A stretch of 44,031 nt of DNA from assembly GCA_028696455.1 (NCBI GenBank), contig JAQVGZ010000013.1:1-44031 (forward strand), read 5' to 3'. This DNA is from Desulfotomaculaceae bacterium. Its GTDB lineage: Bacteria > Bacillota > Desulfotomaculia > Desulfotomaculales > Pelotomaculaceae. This document shows positions 18,302 through 27,697 of this stretch, piece after piece; the stretch's first letter is position 1, and every line of letters begins with the position of its first letter. Both the position numbers and the translations under genes were made by a program. The notes under the pieces are model-generated. The model was not told the origin of the DNA. It saw only the letters and a list, made by a program, of their open reading frames with translations, and did no database searches.

Positions 18302-19117
18302 CTATTCCATAAATTCAATTATAAAAAGCTGGTGGTCATCAGCATAAAAAAATTCATCATATGTTACAGGCAGCTTGGCTGTAATCTTTAGACTGCCCCC
18401 ATTCTTTTCCCAAATACTTTGTCGCATTTCATTGTTCTCGTTATATCTAAACCGGGGGGGATTGGCCAGTCGTGCGTTGCTTAAACCCTGCAGCACATCA
18501 GCCAGGCATGGCGGGCCGTTAACCGTTAGTTTCAACTCTTCAGAATTTAGCTGACCAAAATGATCATCGGCTAGAAGGGCCATACGCACGCCTAACAATA
18601 ATTCATTACATTTCTCCTGATGGTGGAGCAGGGCCTGTTTCATAAAAATCTTTTGGCGCATTTCTCTTTTTAACGGGCGAATGTATGGGGTAACCGGGGA
18701 AAAAACAATTTCCTGTTCATAATAGGGTTTAATGTCCAGCACAGGGGTCCCATCTACAGCATCCAATCCGCTGACCCAAAGAAGGTTGTCTTTCACCCGC
18801 TTCAAACGGACCAGTGACAAAGCAATCGGGTTGGGCCGACTAAAAGCACGCAGGCTAAACACTCCATACTCAGGCAGGTTGGAGTTAACTTTCCCTGGCA
18901 CTGTTTTTAAAATATCACGCTTTGCTTTGTGAAACCACGATTGAATCCATAAATGAGAGTTTTCTTCAATACGTAATAATCCGTCCTTGTATTCAGGAAA
19001 AATTTCAATTAGGCAATTTCCTCCCGTAACCGGCACCCGGTCCACATCCTTATAATCAGACATAACAATTCCTACCGGTTTCAAGGTAATCATGTAGTTT
19101 TCGTTACATGCGATCAT
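18302..19117 (-). CDS. TrmO (TsaA) domain fused to a degenerate FmdE-like domain
   Basis: 271 residues in two parts. Residues about 8-150 are a TsaA/TrmO fold (SAM-dependent methylation of t6A37 in tRNA in characterised members) with GVFSLRAFSRPNPIALS (85-101) and GLDAVDGTPVLDIKPY (117-132). Residues about 160-255 resemble the FmdE-type domain of formylmethanofuran dehydrogenase subunit E. The usual HxCPG is altered (HHQEKCNELLLGVR) and PPCLADVLQGL retains the second Cys region. The gene lies behind a Moco-type riboswitch and terminator (19291-19445), next to modABC. This points to molybdenum/tungsten cofactor metabolism rather than, or besides, tRNA modification. Start at 19117, with AGAGG 10 bases upstream. 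Confidence 0.8.
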   Translation of the reverse strand: MIACNENYMITLKPVGIVMSDYKDVDRVPVTGGNCLIEIFPEYKDGLLRIEENSHLWIQSWFHKAKRDILKTVPGKVNSNLPEYGVFSLRAFSRPNPIALSLVRLKRVKDNLLWVSGLDAVDGTPVLDIKPYYEQEIVFSPVTPYIRPLKREMRQKIFMKQALLHHQEKCNELLLGVRMALLADDHFGQLNSEELKLTVNGPPCLADVLQGLSNARLANPPRFRYNENNEMRQSIWEKNGGSLKITAKLPVTYDEFFYADDHQLFIIEFME

Positions 19118-19290
19118 TTATGCACATCCTCTCTCAATCGTTTACCAACCTACTCACTCATCCATTCACAATAACCGTCACCGCCTCATGGCTATAGTTT
19201 TCTCCCCCTAATTAATATCTTTGGATTACAGGCTATATAAAAGCCGAAAACTCCCCAATGTTAACGGTGATAAGGTTTTTGTTAGAAAAA

Positions 19291-19330
19291 TAAAAAAAGC
19301 CGCACATTGCGAAAAGAGCAATACACGGCT
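19291..19330 (-). terminator. Riboswitch expression-platform terminator
   Basis: On the minus strand AGCCG...ATTGC and GCAAT...CGGCT form a strong stem followed by seven T, then ATTTTT. It starts about 15 bases after the aptamer and 170 bases before the TrmO-FmdE start codon, so it is placed for attenuation of that gene. Confidence 0.8.
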
Positions 19331-19345
19331 AACGAAATACCGTAA

Positions 19346-19445
19346 GTTACTCCTTTCCAACAGGAGGCTTGCCCGTTTCCAGATAAACCCTAACGACTTA
19401 CGACCATGTTTCAATAACTTTAGGCCCGTAAGCTCGGAGTAAAAC
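19346..19445 (-). promoter_or_regulatory. Molybdenum/tungsten cofactor (Moco/Tuco-type) riboswitch
   Basis: The closing stem TTACTCC...GGAGTAA is perfect (7 bp). Inside are CTTACG/CGTAAG pairing, the segment ATGGTCGTAAG, and the 3' core GCCTCC...GGAAAGGAG. This strongly resembles the Moco RNA upstream of E. coli moaA (GCCTCC then GGAAAGG; TCGTAAAG). It is followed by an intrinsic terminator, giving a complete aptamer plus switch in front of the TrmO-FmdE gene. Assigned by recalled consensus; a covariance-model search would settle it. A short open frame crossing this RNA is a by-product. Confidence 0.75.
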
Positions 19446-19724
19446 ATAACTTCTGCAGAAAATAAAAAAATCCTCTATTCTAGAAAAAATTTTTATATCA
19501 TGCCCAAGTTTGACAGAATGTGTCGCAAGGCAGCGGAAAGACATTCCGGTAAGCCGTTATCTCAAAATAACCTTGATAAAAACCCGGTCAGGGTGGTCTC
19601 GCCGCAGCAGACTGACTACTTATTTACGAAAACCCGGATCAACCAGAAGTGTTTCCGTTCGGCCAAGTTTTTAATTTCACCCTTTACTTATGTTCTTGTC
19701 GGGTTTGACGGTTTGCCGGACTTT

Positions 19725-20486
19725 TCAATTACCGCAAGTGGCTTCAGGACAAAACCGGGTTATGCCAAGCAGCGCGGCGGCACCGGCGCCGGTTGTCCCG
19801 AAAAGCACGAGCGGTACACCGGCATTATATATTGTATCTATAGTGGCATTGCAGATAGTGCTGCCAGTGGAAAAAATGACATCACTATTCGCAATATAAT
19901 TGCTTAAGTCTTCAAAGCCACTCTTGATCAGTACCCCATTTTTGGTCTGGCCGATATTGGCCGGGTCAAGGTCAAGTACGGTAACGGAAGGAAAGGCGTT
20001 GTGCAGTGCTTCTGCCAGTGCAGGTTGATAACCGATCATTAGAATCCGTGGACAGCCATAGTTATTTTGAAAATATTCAACTGCCTGATGCGCACATAAC
20101 TCCGGTCCCTCATTACGACAGTGTATGGTATTACCCACCTTTCCGGTATAGCAGGCCACTGCATTAAGAGTGGCAATATACACAGCCCGCTGAAAATCAT
20201 TGATCAGCGGCAGTGCCAGCACATTTTCCAGCGTCCCCGCAAAATCACCCTGCGCGCCGGTAAAAGCCTGTCCTTTCGTACCCATAACGGTAGCCTGCAG
20301 CAGTCGTTCTTTTCCTTTCAGCAACACGTAGTCCTGGCGCCTGGTAGCCCCGATGGCATGTTCCGGGCTTAACAGTGCTGCCTTGACTTTGACTTCCGCC
20401 TGCCTGAGCTGAGATTCATCAACCAGCAAGGCAAATTCCTTTTGCAAGCTGCTGAAAAACGTGCTGATATTAGCACCTTTCATCAT
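19725..20486 (-). CDS. DUF364 (putative heavy-metal chelation) protein
   Basis: About 253 residues with a Rossmann-like second half (RILMIGYQPALAEAL, then LDLDPANIG) and the GSTICNATID and GTTGAGAAALLG segments typical of DUF364 proteins. Its function is not established; relatives are often encoded beside molybdate or other metal uptake genes. It lies 50 bp after modC in the same direction, so it is likely the last gene of modABC-duf364. The start is ATG at 20486 or the next codon at 20483, both after GGAGG; the upstream in-frame start lacks a site. A 280-bp stretch separates it from the riboswitch and holds no gene I can support. Confidence 0.75.
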   Translation of the reverse strand: MMKGANISTFFSSLQKEFALLVDESQLRQAEVKVKAALLSPEHAIGATRRQDYVLLKGKERLLQATVMGTKGQAFTGAQGDFAGTLENVLALPLINDFQRAVYIATLNAVACYTGKVGNTIHCRNEGPELCAHQAVEYFQNNYGCPRILMIGYQPALAEALHNAFPSVTVLDLDPANIGQTKNGVLIKSGFEDLSNYIANSDVIFSTGSTICNATIDTIYNAGVPLVLFGTTGAGAAALLGITRFCPEATCGN

Positions 20487-20535
20487 CAAAACCTCCATCT
20501 TTAGCCCTTTTTTATACACAAAATGATGATTACCC

Positions 20536-21207
20536 TTACGATGCTACTACAACCTTCAGTGAATTCCCCACGCACTGCCCGTTTTCCAGGGAGATAGTAA
20601 TATCTCCTAAAATTTGCGCATCTTCCTCGTCATGGGTTACCAGGATAAATGGTATCTGCCAGTGCTTGTGCAGTTTTTTAACTTCCTGCCTGAGGCTTAT
20701 CTTAGTATTTTTATCCAGAGCACTAAACGGCTCGTCCAGTAAAAGCAGCTCCGGTTCAACGACCAACGCTCTGGCCAGGGCCACCCGCTGCTTTTCCCCG
20801 CCAGAAAGCTGGCCGGGGTACCGGTCAATCAGATGCCCAATACCAAAGGAATCCAGTATTTTTACAGGGTCTACTGTAGATTCACCTTGCTTTTTATTTT
20901 GGCATTTCAGTCCATAAGAAACATTTTGCCGCACGGTCATATGCGGAAAAAGGGCATAGTTTTGGAACAGGTAACCGATATTCCTAGCTTGCGGAGAGCT
21001 GTTAATTTTTTTGCTGGAGGAGTATATAATGCGATCATTCAATTTGATGAACCCTTCATCCGGGTTAAGCAAACCCGCCAAAATTTGCAAGATAGTGGTT
21101 TTGCCTGAGCCGGAGGGTCCCAGAAGAATTAGAATTTGATTGGCCACTCTCAACTGGACATCCAGGGTGAAATGCCATAATCTTTTGGTCAGGCTTACTT
21201 CTAACAT
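20536..21207 (-). CDS. modC: Molybdate ABC transporter ATP-binding protein
   Basis: ATPase of the ModABC molybdate (or tungstate) importer. Walker A GPSGSGKTT (about 30-38), Q-loop NIGYLFQNYALFPHM, signature LSGGEKQRVALARAL (around 135-149) and Walker B LLLLDEPFSALD follow in order. At 223 residues it lacks the C-terminal Mop/TOBE domain of E. coli ModC (about 350 residues), a common short form. It follows modB by 19 bp and is followed by the DUF364 gene. Confidence 0.92.
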   Translation of the reverse strand: MLEVSLTKRLWHFTLDVQLRVANQILILLGPSGSGKTTILQILAGLLNPDEGFIKLNDRIIYSSSKKINSSPQARNIGYLFQNYALFPHMTVRQNVSYGLKCQNKKQGESTVDPVKILDSFGIGHLIDRYPGQLSGGEKQRVALARALVVEPELLLLDEPFSALDKNTKISLRQEVKKLHKHWQIPFILVTHDEEDAQILGDITISLENGQCVGNSLKVVVAS

Positions 21208-21226
21208 ATAATCCCACCATTACCCT

Positions 21227-21898
21227 TTAATATTTTTGCTTTTTTGCCCAACGGTTTATCCAGAATATTACACAGAAACTAAATACTGTAATGACGGCAA
21301 CTAGAGTTTTAGCCATTACGTTTTTTCCTGATTCTACAGCAAAATATATGGCTGTAGGAATCGTTTGGGTCTGGCCCGGGATGTTGCCGGCTACCATCAA
21401 AGTGGCCCCGAATTCACCCAGGGCACGGGCAAAGGTCAGCACCAGACCCGCCAGAATACCCGGCCAGGCCAAGGGTAGGGTTACCGTAAAAAATATTCTC
21501 ATTTCACTCGCCCCCAGCGTCCTGGCTGCTTTTTCCAAGTTAACGTCCACGCTTTTAAAGGCCGCCTTGGCGCTCTGATACATCAGCGGGAAAGCCACCA
21601 CGGTGGAGGCAATAACAGCCGCATACCAGGTAAACACTAAAGTCAAGCCTAATTCAGCCAGAGTTTTGCCTAACAAGCCGTTTTTGCCAATCAGCATCAG
21701 CAAGCCGTAGCCGACAACCGACGGGGGCAACACCATCGGTAGGGTAATTGCAGCCTCCAAAAAATCCTTGCCCCAAAATTCTCTACGGGCCATTAGCCTG
21801 GTCAGAGGTACACCCAGACAAGTAACGACAACCGTAGCAATTATGGCTACCCGGATAGAAAGGATTAATGGGCGCCAGTCCATTTCCTGCATAAACAT
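21227..21898 (-). CDS. modB: Molybdate ABC transporter permease
   Basis: 223-residue membrane permease with about five helices and the EAA loop EKAARTLGASEMRIFFTVTLPLAWPGIL that contacts ModC. ARALGEFGATLMVAGN is the usual ModB signature. It lies 9 bp after modA. The start region has several Met codons (21898, 21892, 21883), and the ribosome site is weak, so translational coupling to modA is likely. Confidence 0.92.
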   Translation of the reverse strand: MFMQEMDWRPLILSIRVAIIATVVVTCLGVPLTRLMARREFWGKDFLEAAITLPMVLPPSVVGYGLLMLIGKNGLLGKTLAELGLTLVFTWYAAVIASTVVAFPLMYQSAKAAFKSVDVNLEKAARTLGASEMRIFFTVTLPLAWPGILAGLVLTFARALGEFGATLMVAGNIPGQTQTIPTAIYFAVESGKNVMAKTLVAVITVFSFCVIFWINRWAKKQKY

Positions 21899-21907
21899 AA
21901 TTAAACT

Positions 21908-22687
21908 CTACTCATTTACTTTGAATCCATATTTTTCGAAAACTTTAACGGCTTCGTCACTCGTCAGAAATGCTGCAAACGCTTCCGCCTCTTTCTGTTG
22001 TGCGGCGCCATTGACCACAGCCATCGGATAAACTATAGGCTCAGAGGACCCGGCAGGGGCGGCTGCAATGATCTTAATATTGCTGCTGGTTATGGCATCG
22101 GTGCGGTAAACCAGGCCCGCATCCACATTACCGGTTTCCACATACGTAAGCACCTGGCGCACATCTTTAGCAGGGACCATCCTGGATTGAAGCTGCTCCC
22201 ATAACCTTAGATTAGTCAAAACTTCTTTGGCGTACTTACCCGCAGGTACCGTTTCAGGCGTGCCAATGCTAATCTTTTTTACACTCGCATCAGTTAAACC
22301 ATCAAAACCGGTGAGATTACTATCTTTCCCGGCAATCAACACCAGTTCGTTCCCCAGCAAATCTTTGCGTGAAGCATCAATAATCAAGCCTTTTTGGGAG
22401 AGAGCATCCATCTGTGACTTGCCGGCAGATATAAATAGATCTGACGGGGCCCCCTCTTCGATCTGCTTTTGCAGGACTCCCGAGGCGGCTAGATTATAGG
22501 TCAGTGTTACATCCTGATGTTGTATTTCATAGATTGGCTTTAATTCTGCCATGGCATCCTGCAGACTAGCTGCTGCTGAAATAGTTAGGTTTACAGGTTC
22601 GGTTGCTAATTGTTCTTTTTTCTCTCCGCATCCGGCGAAAGATAAAACAAATATCATAAGTACAAAAAACACCAGTATTTTTTTCAT
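21908..22687 (-). CDS. modA: Molybdate ABC transporter substrate-binding lipoprotein
   Basis: 259-residue oxyanion-binding protein with a lipoprotein signal (lipobox FAGC, lipid Cys20). The ModA start is VNLTISAAASLQDAM, in which the Ser of AAASL binds oxyanion. PSDLFISAGKSQMD and TYVETGNVDAGLVYRTDA are conserved. The ATG at 22687 has AGGAGGAG 7 bases upstream. It is the first gene of modABC-duf364, with a good sigma-A promoter and phased repeats over the start site. Molybdate versus tungstate preference cannot be read from the sequence. Confidence 0.93.
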   Translation of the reverse strand: MKKILVFFVLMIFVLSFAGCGEKKEQLATEPVNLTISAAASLQDAMAELKPIYEIQHQDVTLTYNLAASGVLQKQIEEGAPSDLFISAGKSQMDALSQKGLIIDASRKDLLGNELVLIAGKDSNLTGFDGLTDASVKKISIGTPETVPAGKYAKEVLTNLRLWEQLQSRMVPAKDVRQVLTYVETGNVDAGLVYRTDAITSSNIKIIAAAPAGSSEPIVYPMAVVNGAAQQKEAEAFAAFLTSDEAVKVFEKYGFKVNE

Positions 22688-22948: not shown

Positions 22949-23911
22949 ATGAAGAAAGAATCTTCTTTAACTCCCGAAGAGGTTGCAGGTATTCTTAAAA
23001 TTACCAAAAATACCGTTTATGAATTAGTAAAAAGGGGAGAGCTAAAGGCTTACCGGGTGGGACGTAAAATCCGGGTCGACATTAAGGACGTCGATGCTTA
23101 CAAGATGAAGGGCAAAAATATTGATTTAATAACACCAAACAGCCCAGCGGTGGTTAAGATTTCGTCTCCCCAATTATCGCTCGAAAAGAAACCCGCTCAG
23201 CCCGCTCAGAGACTGGTAATCTGCGGCCAGGATATCCTCCTTGACATTTTAGTCCGCCATCTGGAGCGACATCCAAGCGGGGTCAGTGCTCTTCGCCACC
23301 ATGTAGGAAGCTTTAACGGCCTTTTGGCCCTTTACCAGGGTAAAGTTCATATGACTGCAGTCCATCTTTGGGCCGGGGAAAGAGATCTTTATAATATTCC
23401 CTATGTTCGCCGCCTGCTTCCCGGCATTCCTACTTTAATATTACATTTGGCATGCCGGATGCAGGGCTTTTACGTGGCTAAAGGTAACCCTAAAGGAATA
23501 AAGGACTGGACCGATCTACACCGTCCGGACATACGTTTCGTAAACAGGGAAAAAGGTTGTGGCACCCGCGTCCTTCTTAATGAACAGTTTCGGCTTCTGG
23601 GATTGGACAGCAGTCAAATAAACGGTTATGATAGAGAGGAATTATCCCATCTTGCTGTAGCAAGTGCTGTTGCCCGAGGTGAAGCCGATGTAGGTCTGGG
23701 CATCGAAAAGGTGTCGATGCAGGTTCGTGGAATTGATTTTATTCCACTTCAAAAAGAACGCTATGAACTGGTTATGAAAAAAGAAGACCTGGACAAGCCT
23801 CAGTTCCAGGCAGTTTTTGAAACGCTCCAGTCCAGGGAGTTTATAGCTGAGCTTCAGGGACTGGGCGATTATGACTTGACTGAAACAGGCAGGATCATAG
23901 CTGAAGTGTAA
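22949..23911 (+). CDS. Regulator: excisionase-type HTH plus substrate-binding (PBP-like) domain
   Basis: 320 residues. An N-terminal helix-turn-helix of the excisionase/MerR-like type (LTPEEVAGILKITKNTVYELVKRGELKAYRVGRKIRV, about 7-43) is joined by a linker to a periplasmic-binding-protein-like domain (about 70-300). That domain contains RFVNREKGCGTRVLLNEQF and ARGEADVGLGIE, as in one-component regulators that sense small anions. Divergent from modABC over shared promoters, so a molybdate/tungstate-responsive regulator is the best inference. Ribosome site GGGAGGAG lies before ATG 22949. The ligand and the sign of regulation are not shown by the sequence. Confidence 0.88.
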   Translation: MKKESSLTPEEVAGILKITKNTVYELVKRGELKAYRVGRKIRVDIKDVDAYKMKGKNIDLITPNSPAVVKISSPQLSLEKKPAQPAQRLVICGQDILLDILVRHLERHPSGVSALRHHVGSFNGLLALYQGKVHMTAVHLWAGERDLYNIPYVRRLLPGIPTLILHLACRMQGFYVAKGNPKGIKDWTDLHRPDIRFVNREKGCGTRVLLNEQFRLLGLDSSQINGYDREELSHLAVASAVARGEADVGLGIEKVSMQVRGIDFIPLQKERYELVMKKEDLDKPQFQAVFETLQSREFIAELQGLGDYDLTETGRIIAEV

Positions 23912-23960: not shown

Positions 23961-24221
23961 CAGAAAAACAAAGTGATGACCGGGACGAGTAAGTACTCAT
24001 GTTTTTGTCAGGGAGGGAAGGCCGACGACTGAAAGCCTTCCTCATGAACAGATATTGAAGAACCCCCGGGAGCGGCCGCCGAAAGTGCAAAAACAGCGCC
24101 AGTAGGCCGGCACGGAGGCCTCCGTTAAAGGCCTAGAGGGATAATAAATTATCCAATCAGGGTGGCACCACGGTTTAAACCCGTCCCTGGCAGTGCTGAC
24201 GCATAGCCGGGGGCGGTTTTT
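23961..24221 (+). promoter_or_regulatory. T-box riboswitch upstream of hisS
   Basis: The conserved T-box AGGGTGGCACCACGG is at 24159-24173. Upstream is a long stem I region with the GACGAGTA motif (about 23983-23990) and an apical GGAAGGC/GCCTTCC pair. The terminator CCGTCCCTGGC...GCCGGGGGCGG-TTTTT (24181-24221) follows. Uncharged tRNA binding would favour antitermination and raise hisS-aspS expression. I could not fix the specifier codon with confidence; GAT at 24051-24053 (Asp) is one candidate. Confidence 0.9.
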
Positions 24222-27511: not shown

Positions 27512-27697
27512 ATAAAAATACCCTGCTGTGTACGTGACCAACCTTGAAGTTTTGAGCCAACACCATATAAAAGGGAGTCCGGCTCTGGATGTGGCTTGCA
27601 TGCCTCCCAGTCGAGGAAACAAAAATCATTCAGGAGGACACCCACCTGTGAGAACAGGTTCGAGCTTTGGGGGGTTAACGGCATAAGTGGGGTTTCT
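27512..27697 (+). ncRNA. ssrS: 6S RNA
   Basis: An approximately 185-nt element directly downstream of aspS, the position of bsrA (6S-1) in Bacillus. Its 5' end (ACCCTGCTGTGTACGTGACC) pairs roughly with its 3' end (GGGGTTAACGGCATAAGTGGGG) as a closing stem. The central segments CTTGAAGTTTTGAGCC, GTGGCTTGCATGCCTCC, CACCTGTGAGAACAGGTTCGAG match my memory of clostridial 6S RNAs. 6S RNA binds sigma-A RNA polymerase and moderates transcription. Short open frames on either strand here are by-products. The preceding 27348-27470 stretch holds only a weak hairpin. Confidence 0.72.

Follow-up and report, generated by a model that had tools for sequence, protein, structure and literature searches.

A riboswitch of the Moco family, probably one that senses the tungsten cofactor, appears to attenuate a gene for a TrmO–FmdE fusion in a Desulfotomaculaceae bacterium, and we think it probable that this fusion acts in the cytoplasm on the supply side of molybdenum/tungsten (Mo/W) cofactor metabolism, being made when the cofactor is scarce. 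The window (the whole stretch of 44,031 nucleotides that was analyzed) carries the riboswitch and its gene on the minus strand, behind genes for molybdate uptake:

22949..23911, plus strand: regulator with HTH and PBP_like domains (PF12728 and PF12727), divergent from modA
21908..22687, minus strand: modA, molybdate-binding protein (TIGR01256, 216 bits; cutoff 62.5)
21227..21898, minus strand: modB, permease (TIGR02141, 257 bits; cutoff 183)
20536..21207, minus strand: modC-like ATPase (TIGR02142, 223 bits, under the equivalog cutoff of 285)
19725..20519, minus strand: DUF364 protein, putative heavy-metal chelation (PF04016, 31.8 bits), the last gene before the riboswitch
19477..19506, minus strand: candidate promoter TGGGCA-18-TAGAAT just 5' of the aptamer, 9 of 12 consensus matches, seen only in a consensus scan that gave no more promoter-like matches than shuffles did
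19334..19451, minus strand: Moco/Tuco riboswitch aptamer of the P3-less type (Rfam RF01055, cmscan)
19311..19358, minus strand: predicted antiterminator (progressive and constrained folding)
19298..19330, minus strand: intrinsic terminator, 13-bp stem and 7-nt loop followed by TTTTTTT
18302..19117, minus strand: TrmO_N–FmdE fusion gene, 271 aa (Pfam PF01980 and PF02663)

Two other RNA elements were noted in the window, namely, a T-box leader before a hisS-like gene (23967-24191) and a 6S RNA (27517-27697).

The leader RNA and its expression platform

The preliminary description of this DNA had placed a Moco-type riboswitch with an intrinsic terminator ahead of a TsaA/TrmO domain fused to an altered FmdE-like domain, and all of these elements were recovered within or around its span of 18302-19445, which covers the gene, the leader, and nearly the whole aptamer. 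The covariance model RF01055 matches the minus strand from 19451 to 19334 over its full length (model positions 1-135; E 3.7e-15), scoring 70.6 bits where the gathering threshold is 36 bits. In this alignment, the positions of the P3 stem are deletions, and of the 23 Moco RNAs encoded by the window's own genome, 22 likewise lack P3. P3-less Moco RNAs have been proposed as tungsten-cofactor sensors (Regulski et al. 2008; PMC2408646), which as a rule for ligand choice is a published hypothesis rather than a proven one. The same genome encodes three AFOR-family genes, as well as several TGA-containing formate dehydrogenase-like genes downstream of Moco RNAs, which agrees with an aptamer of the tungsten-cofactor type, and the ligand in the window is probably the tungsten form of the cofactor. 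With its full-length match, its P3-less subtype, its attenuation-type expression platform, and a host rich in tungsten-type enzymes, the element resembles the Moco/Tuco riboswitches of the main text of Regulski et al.; it differs in the gene under control, as FmdE, TsaA, and COG1720 are all absent from that main text. In terms of copy number, the 23 Moco RNAs of this genome compare with "at least 15" in S. wolfei, the highest figure in the same text. Over the genomes counted, totals were 23 in the window's 2.69-Mb genome (G000), 30 in G002, and 26 in G049.

Downstream of the aptamer, the terminator coexists with P1 in the minimum free energy fold of the leader. The 3' strand of P1, GGAAAGGAGUAA (19358..19347), can however pair instead with UUGCUCUUUUC (19321..19311), which comprises the end of the terminator 5' arm plus the terminator loop. 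When the folding of the growing leader was followed computationally, a strand exchange was found in which GGAAAGGAGUAA joins either the P1 5' strand or UUGCUCUUUUC, the two pairings being mutually exclusive, and constrained folding gave near-equal energies for the state with P1 and terminator (-50.5 kcal/mol) and for the antiterminator state (-49.1 kcal/mol). Because the P1 3' strand has two competing partners, a ligand that stabilizes the aptamer should turn the gene off. Folding predicts that, with the cofactor bound, P1 would keep GGAAAGGAGUAA, the terminator would form, and the fusion gene would be off, whereas in the absence of the cofactor GGAAAGGAGUAA would pair with the terminator 5' arm and the gene would be on. 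The fusion gene (19117..18302) is the next minus-strand gene after the terminator and is preceded by GAGAGAGGATG. The aptamer is thus joined to a gene-control structure made of terminator and predicted antiterminator, and its target is a gene that recurs with Mo/W genes.

A TrmO-like barrel joined to an altered FmdE domain

The product of this gene matches TrmO_N with 102.6 bits (residues 34-134) and, weakly albeit above the cutoff, FmdE (25.3 vs. 22.9 bits; residues 166-248). Among 35 aligned members of the fusion family, TrmO_N was found in all 35 and FmdE in 31 (E up to 1). An AlphaFold2 model of the fusion has a mean pLDDT of 78 and a pTM of 0.54, values at which the placement of the two domains relative to each other should be taken as unreliable; taken separately, the modeled N-terminal domain matches the TrmO structure 2nv4 (Z 15.7) and the C-terminal domain the FmdE structure 2glz (Z 12.7 over 113 residues). 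Matches of the N-terminal barrel to ribosomal proteins were middling at the fold level (Z about 7-8) and were set aside as not meaningful.

The relationship with FmdE is a distant one: a simple BLASTP comparison between the fusion and stand-alone FmdE gave no match, while hhalign of the fusion profile against the neighboring stand-alone FmdE returned a probability of 96.6, with the metal motif aligned. As in the FmdE family (PF02663; PMC2954224), the domain score lies above gathering, the fold matches 2glz, 3d00, and 2gvi, and the genes lie near metal transporters, a neighborhood already described for FmdE genes in 2010 together with the naming of the UPF0066-FmdE architecture (PMC2954224). 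Unlike in that family, the motif FHGHxC reads HHQExC in the window's fusion, and the zinc finger is missing; the riboswitch link is also a feature that PMC2954224 does not report. The metal ligands of FmdE are His, His, Cys, and Cys (PMC2954224), and the corresponding positions of the fusion are His166, Glu168, Cys170, and Cys204. Replacement of the second His by Glu is seen in 32 of the 35 fusions, and four of the 35 have both ligand Cys replaced (by Ser and Glu).

Since regulatory or metal-sensing roles have been suggested for some FmdE members (PMC2954224), and since a beta-barrel could bind RNA, the fusion might be a regulator or sensor, in which a metal or cofactor bound by the FmdE domain would give rise to a signal that the TrmO-like barrel relays to RNA or protein. 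We find this quite improbable, as the zinc-finger extension of FmdE thought to serve such a role is the very part that is missing, no DNA-binding domain is seen in the fusion, and the window already encodes a separate HTH-PBP regulator.

The N-terminal domain raises another question, for the fusion scores 125 bits against TIGR00104, the TrmO equivalog, whose cutoff is 93, and genome pipelines are therefore likely to name it TrmO. Could it simply be an ordinary TrmO, that is, an m6t6A tRNA methyltransferase, whose Moco RNA was brought in by rearrangement of the locus or ties translation to the state of the cofactor? Besides the equivalog score, the barrel fold shared with TrmO/YaeB (2nv4, 7btu, 1xqb) and three of the four residues with which TrmO contacts AdoMet (Gln, Arg, Asp, and Lys; PMC4132733) speak for this, Arg90, Asp119, and Lys130 being retained in the window. 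The fourth position, the AdoMet-recognizing Gln, is Thr31 here; this Gln is missing from 31 of the 35 fusions and present in 4, whereas stand-alone TrmO rows retain it, so that methyl transfer by the fusions is unsure. The C-terminal DPRxxY domain that E. coli TrmO requires (PMC4132733) is also missing, with the FmdE domain in its place, but short clostridial stand-alone TrmO proteins are likewise too short to hold DPRxxY, which makes its absence weak evidence. Phylogenetically, the fusions form a single clade (99/98) separate from stand-alone TrmO, and both kinds of protein are encoded together in at least eight genomes. The window's own genome has no second TrmO_N protein, and a residual tRNA role of the fusion is thus possible there. 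On these grounds, as well as on the distribution of the riboswitch described below, we regard an ordinary TrmO as improbable.

A second TrmO-containing family, whose C-terminal part is reminiscent of FmdE, was also encountered (L090-L098); its clusters often include a class V aminotransferase/desulfurase-like gene and ECF transporter genes, with no Moco RNA nearby.

Recurrence of the riboswitch and the Mo/W partners of the fusion

The fusion occurs in a wide range of genomes from the class and the phylum to which the window belongs. Four other genomes have an RF01055 match (61 to 82 bits, Rfam) directly 5' of the fusion and in the same orientation, and in seven further loci the fusion is part of an operon that starts with a Moco RNA on the same strand:

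Direct pairs outside the window: L077 (genome G002), L073 (G003), L079 (G013), and L078 (G017)
L059, operon after Moco RNA: TupA-TupB-TupC-DUF364-WtpA-fusion-FmdE
L174, operon after Moco RNA: NMT1-type ABC transporter-fusion-FmdE-ModD
L166, operon after Moco RNA: NMT1-type ABC transporter-fusion
L165, operon after Moco RNA: molybdopterin oxidoreductase-XdhC-fusion-DUF364
L051, L052, and L053, operons after Moco RNA: S-layer-domain protein, then fusion

With the window included, five direct pairs were thus seen for about 59 fusion genes, where about 0.03 would be expected by chance, G013 and G017 on the one hand and L051-L053 on the other being close relatives and hence non-independent. About 47 of these 59 genes have no Moco RNA heading their own operon. 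No Moco RNA was found within 1.5 kb of stand-alone TrmO in any of 10 loci, nor near the paralogous TrmO family in any of nine. Direct pairing occurs at two distinct places within the fusion clade, in an earlier tree with two mis-extracted rows (T_L041 and T_L050) with which a later tree is compatible, and this suggests that the pairing was gained, or retained, on more than one occasion. In the three loci examined for their platform (L073, L077, and L079), the aptamer is followed by tandem terminators, the second of which has a 5' arm (CCUUUCC) that could again pair with the P1 3' strand, so that, as judged from base complementarity, the switching logic would be that of the window with a different sequence.

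The preliminary description had tied the fusion to Mo/W cofactor status and had called for the same pairing to be sought in other genomes; with the strong covariance match and the pairs found elsewhere, this link is now well supported, and neither of the two results that it had named as contrary, a missing covariance-model match or a pairing confined to this DNA, was obtained. Our search of openly accessible literature, including the main text of the 2008 riboswitch paper, found no published report of riboswitch control of the fusion gene.

The recurrence of the pairing in unrelated contexts also argues against an ordinary TrmO that came under a Moco RNA by rearrangement. What can be said for such an event is that the RNA could have switched target in the window, as L076 and L080 have tupA at the same place. 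The order modABC-DUF364-Moco RNA-X is conserved between the window (19334-22687), L076, L080, and L083; where the window has the fusion as X, L076 and L080 have tupA, and L083 has a different gene. That the Moco RNA might be a trailing element of modABC-DUF364 was considered and discounted, since the RNA precedes tupA at the same position in L076 and L080 and hence points every time toward the gene behind it.

Fusions devoid of their own riboswitch have comparable neighbors. FecCD-type or MolABC-like metal importers adjoin them in L063, L072, L074, L084, and L088, some of which also carry DUF364, stand-alone FmdE, and radical-SAM genes; elsewhere, the fusion adjoins the molybdate transporter MOT1 (L067 and L069), formate dehydrogenase and MoeA genes with a divergent FdhD (L081, L085, and L087), or ModD (L177). 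Among the first 39 fusion loci, about one in three lacks all of the listed Mo/W genes over a distance of 6 kb, although some of these are riboswitch-controlled or carry MOT1. ModD, MOT1, FdhD, XdhC, and the other Mo/W accessory genes show no sequence relation to the fusion and are to be seen as its operon or neighborhood partners in the same presumed pathway, not as its relatives.

Some of these partners could hint at a different function, in which the fusion, much like FdhD or XdhC, would modify or insert the cofactor and so mature particular molybdo- or tungsto-enzymes instead of supplying metal. In L165, the XdhC-family gene stands between the riboswitch-controlled molybdopterin oxidoreductase and the fusion, and the divergent FdhD of L081, L085, and L087 points the same way. 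Linkages to transporters are nevertheless more numerous, and the enzyme partners vary between genomes, which in our judgment leaves enzyme maturation a slim chance.

Riboswitch control by itself is no proof of a supply role either, given that Moco RNAs of the window's genome also stand before cofactor-using enzymes. Several other arrangements were observed in this genome. At L009 (6125-6760; G000:C56:7124-7759), three consecutive Moco RNAs, two of them followed by near-identical terminators, precede a formate dehydrogenase-like gene with an in-frame TGA (DHCARL-U-HAPTV). At L013 (6096-6370; G000:C80), the gene after tandem Moco RNAs encodes a membrane protein of the ECF substrate-binding type (PF09819); ECF genes related to it are found beside fusions in L055, L057, L058, and L066, and a link of this type of transporter to the cofactor or a metal is possible. 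Single Moco RNAs were also found directly 5' of a HypA-like (nickel insertion) gene (L017, 4699-4813; G000:C60:37698-37812) and before a class V aminotransferase (desulfurase-like) gene (L019, 3824-3960; G000:C87).

Proposed role in Mo/W cofactor supply

The preliminary description had offered cofactor sensing, insertion, or metal handling as possible roles for the fusion; among such roles, the genomic context favors one on the supply side. Given partners with functions in transport, cofactor assembly, and maturation, and a switch predicted to turn off upon ligand binding, we infer that a supply-side role is the most likely. The FmdE domain would probably bind a metal or oxyanion at its H/E/C/C site, the TrmO-like barrel may bind AdoMet, and the protein would process newly imported molybdate or tungstate, or pass it toward cofactor assembly or enzyme maturation.

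To a related scenario we grant a small though appreciable chance, namely, that the fusion is a new enzyme of the Mo/W cofactor pathway, whose AdoMet barrel and H/E/C/C site would together methylate or otherwise modify a cofactor intermediate or an Mo/W chelate, and whose production the finished (tungsten) cofactor would repress. If true, this would amount to a step absent from current Moco/Tuco pathways.

With regard to the supply-side role that we favor, the present evidence points to a place in Mo/W cofactor supply for proteins that nonetheless score as TrmO, and it thereby provides a concrete candidate gene for the little-understood stages that lead from the import of the metal to the assembly of the cofactor in syntrophic anaerobes, which depend on tungsten and molybdenum formate dehydrogenases. 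The leader itself offers a well-defined attenuator in which the unproven idea of tungsten-cofactor sensing by P3-less Moco RNAs could be tested.
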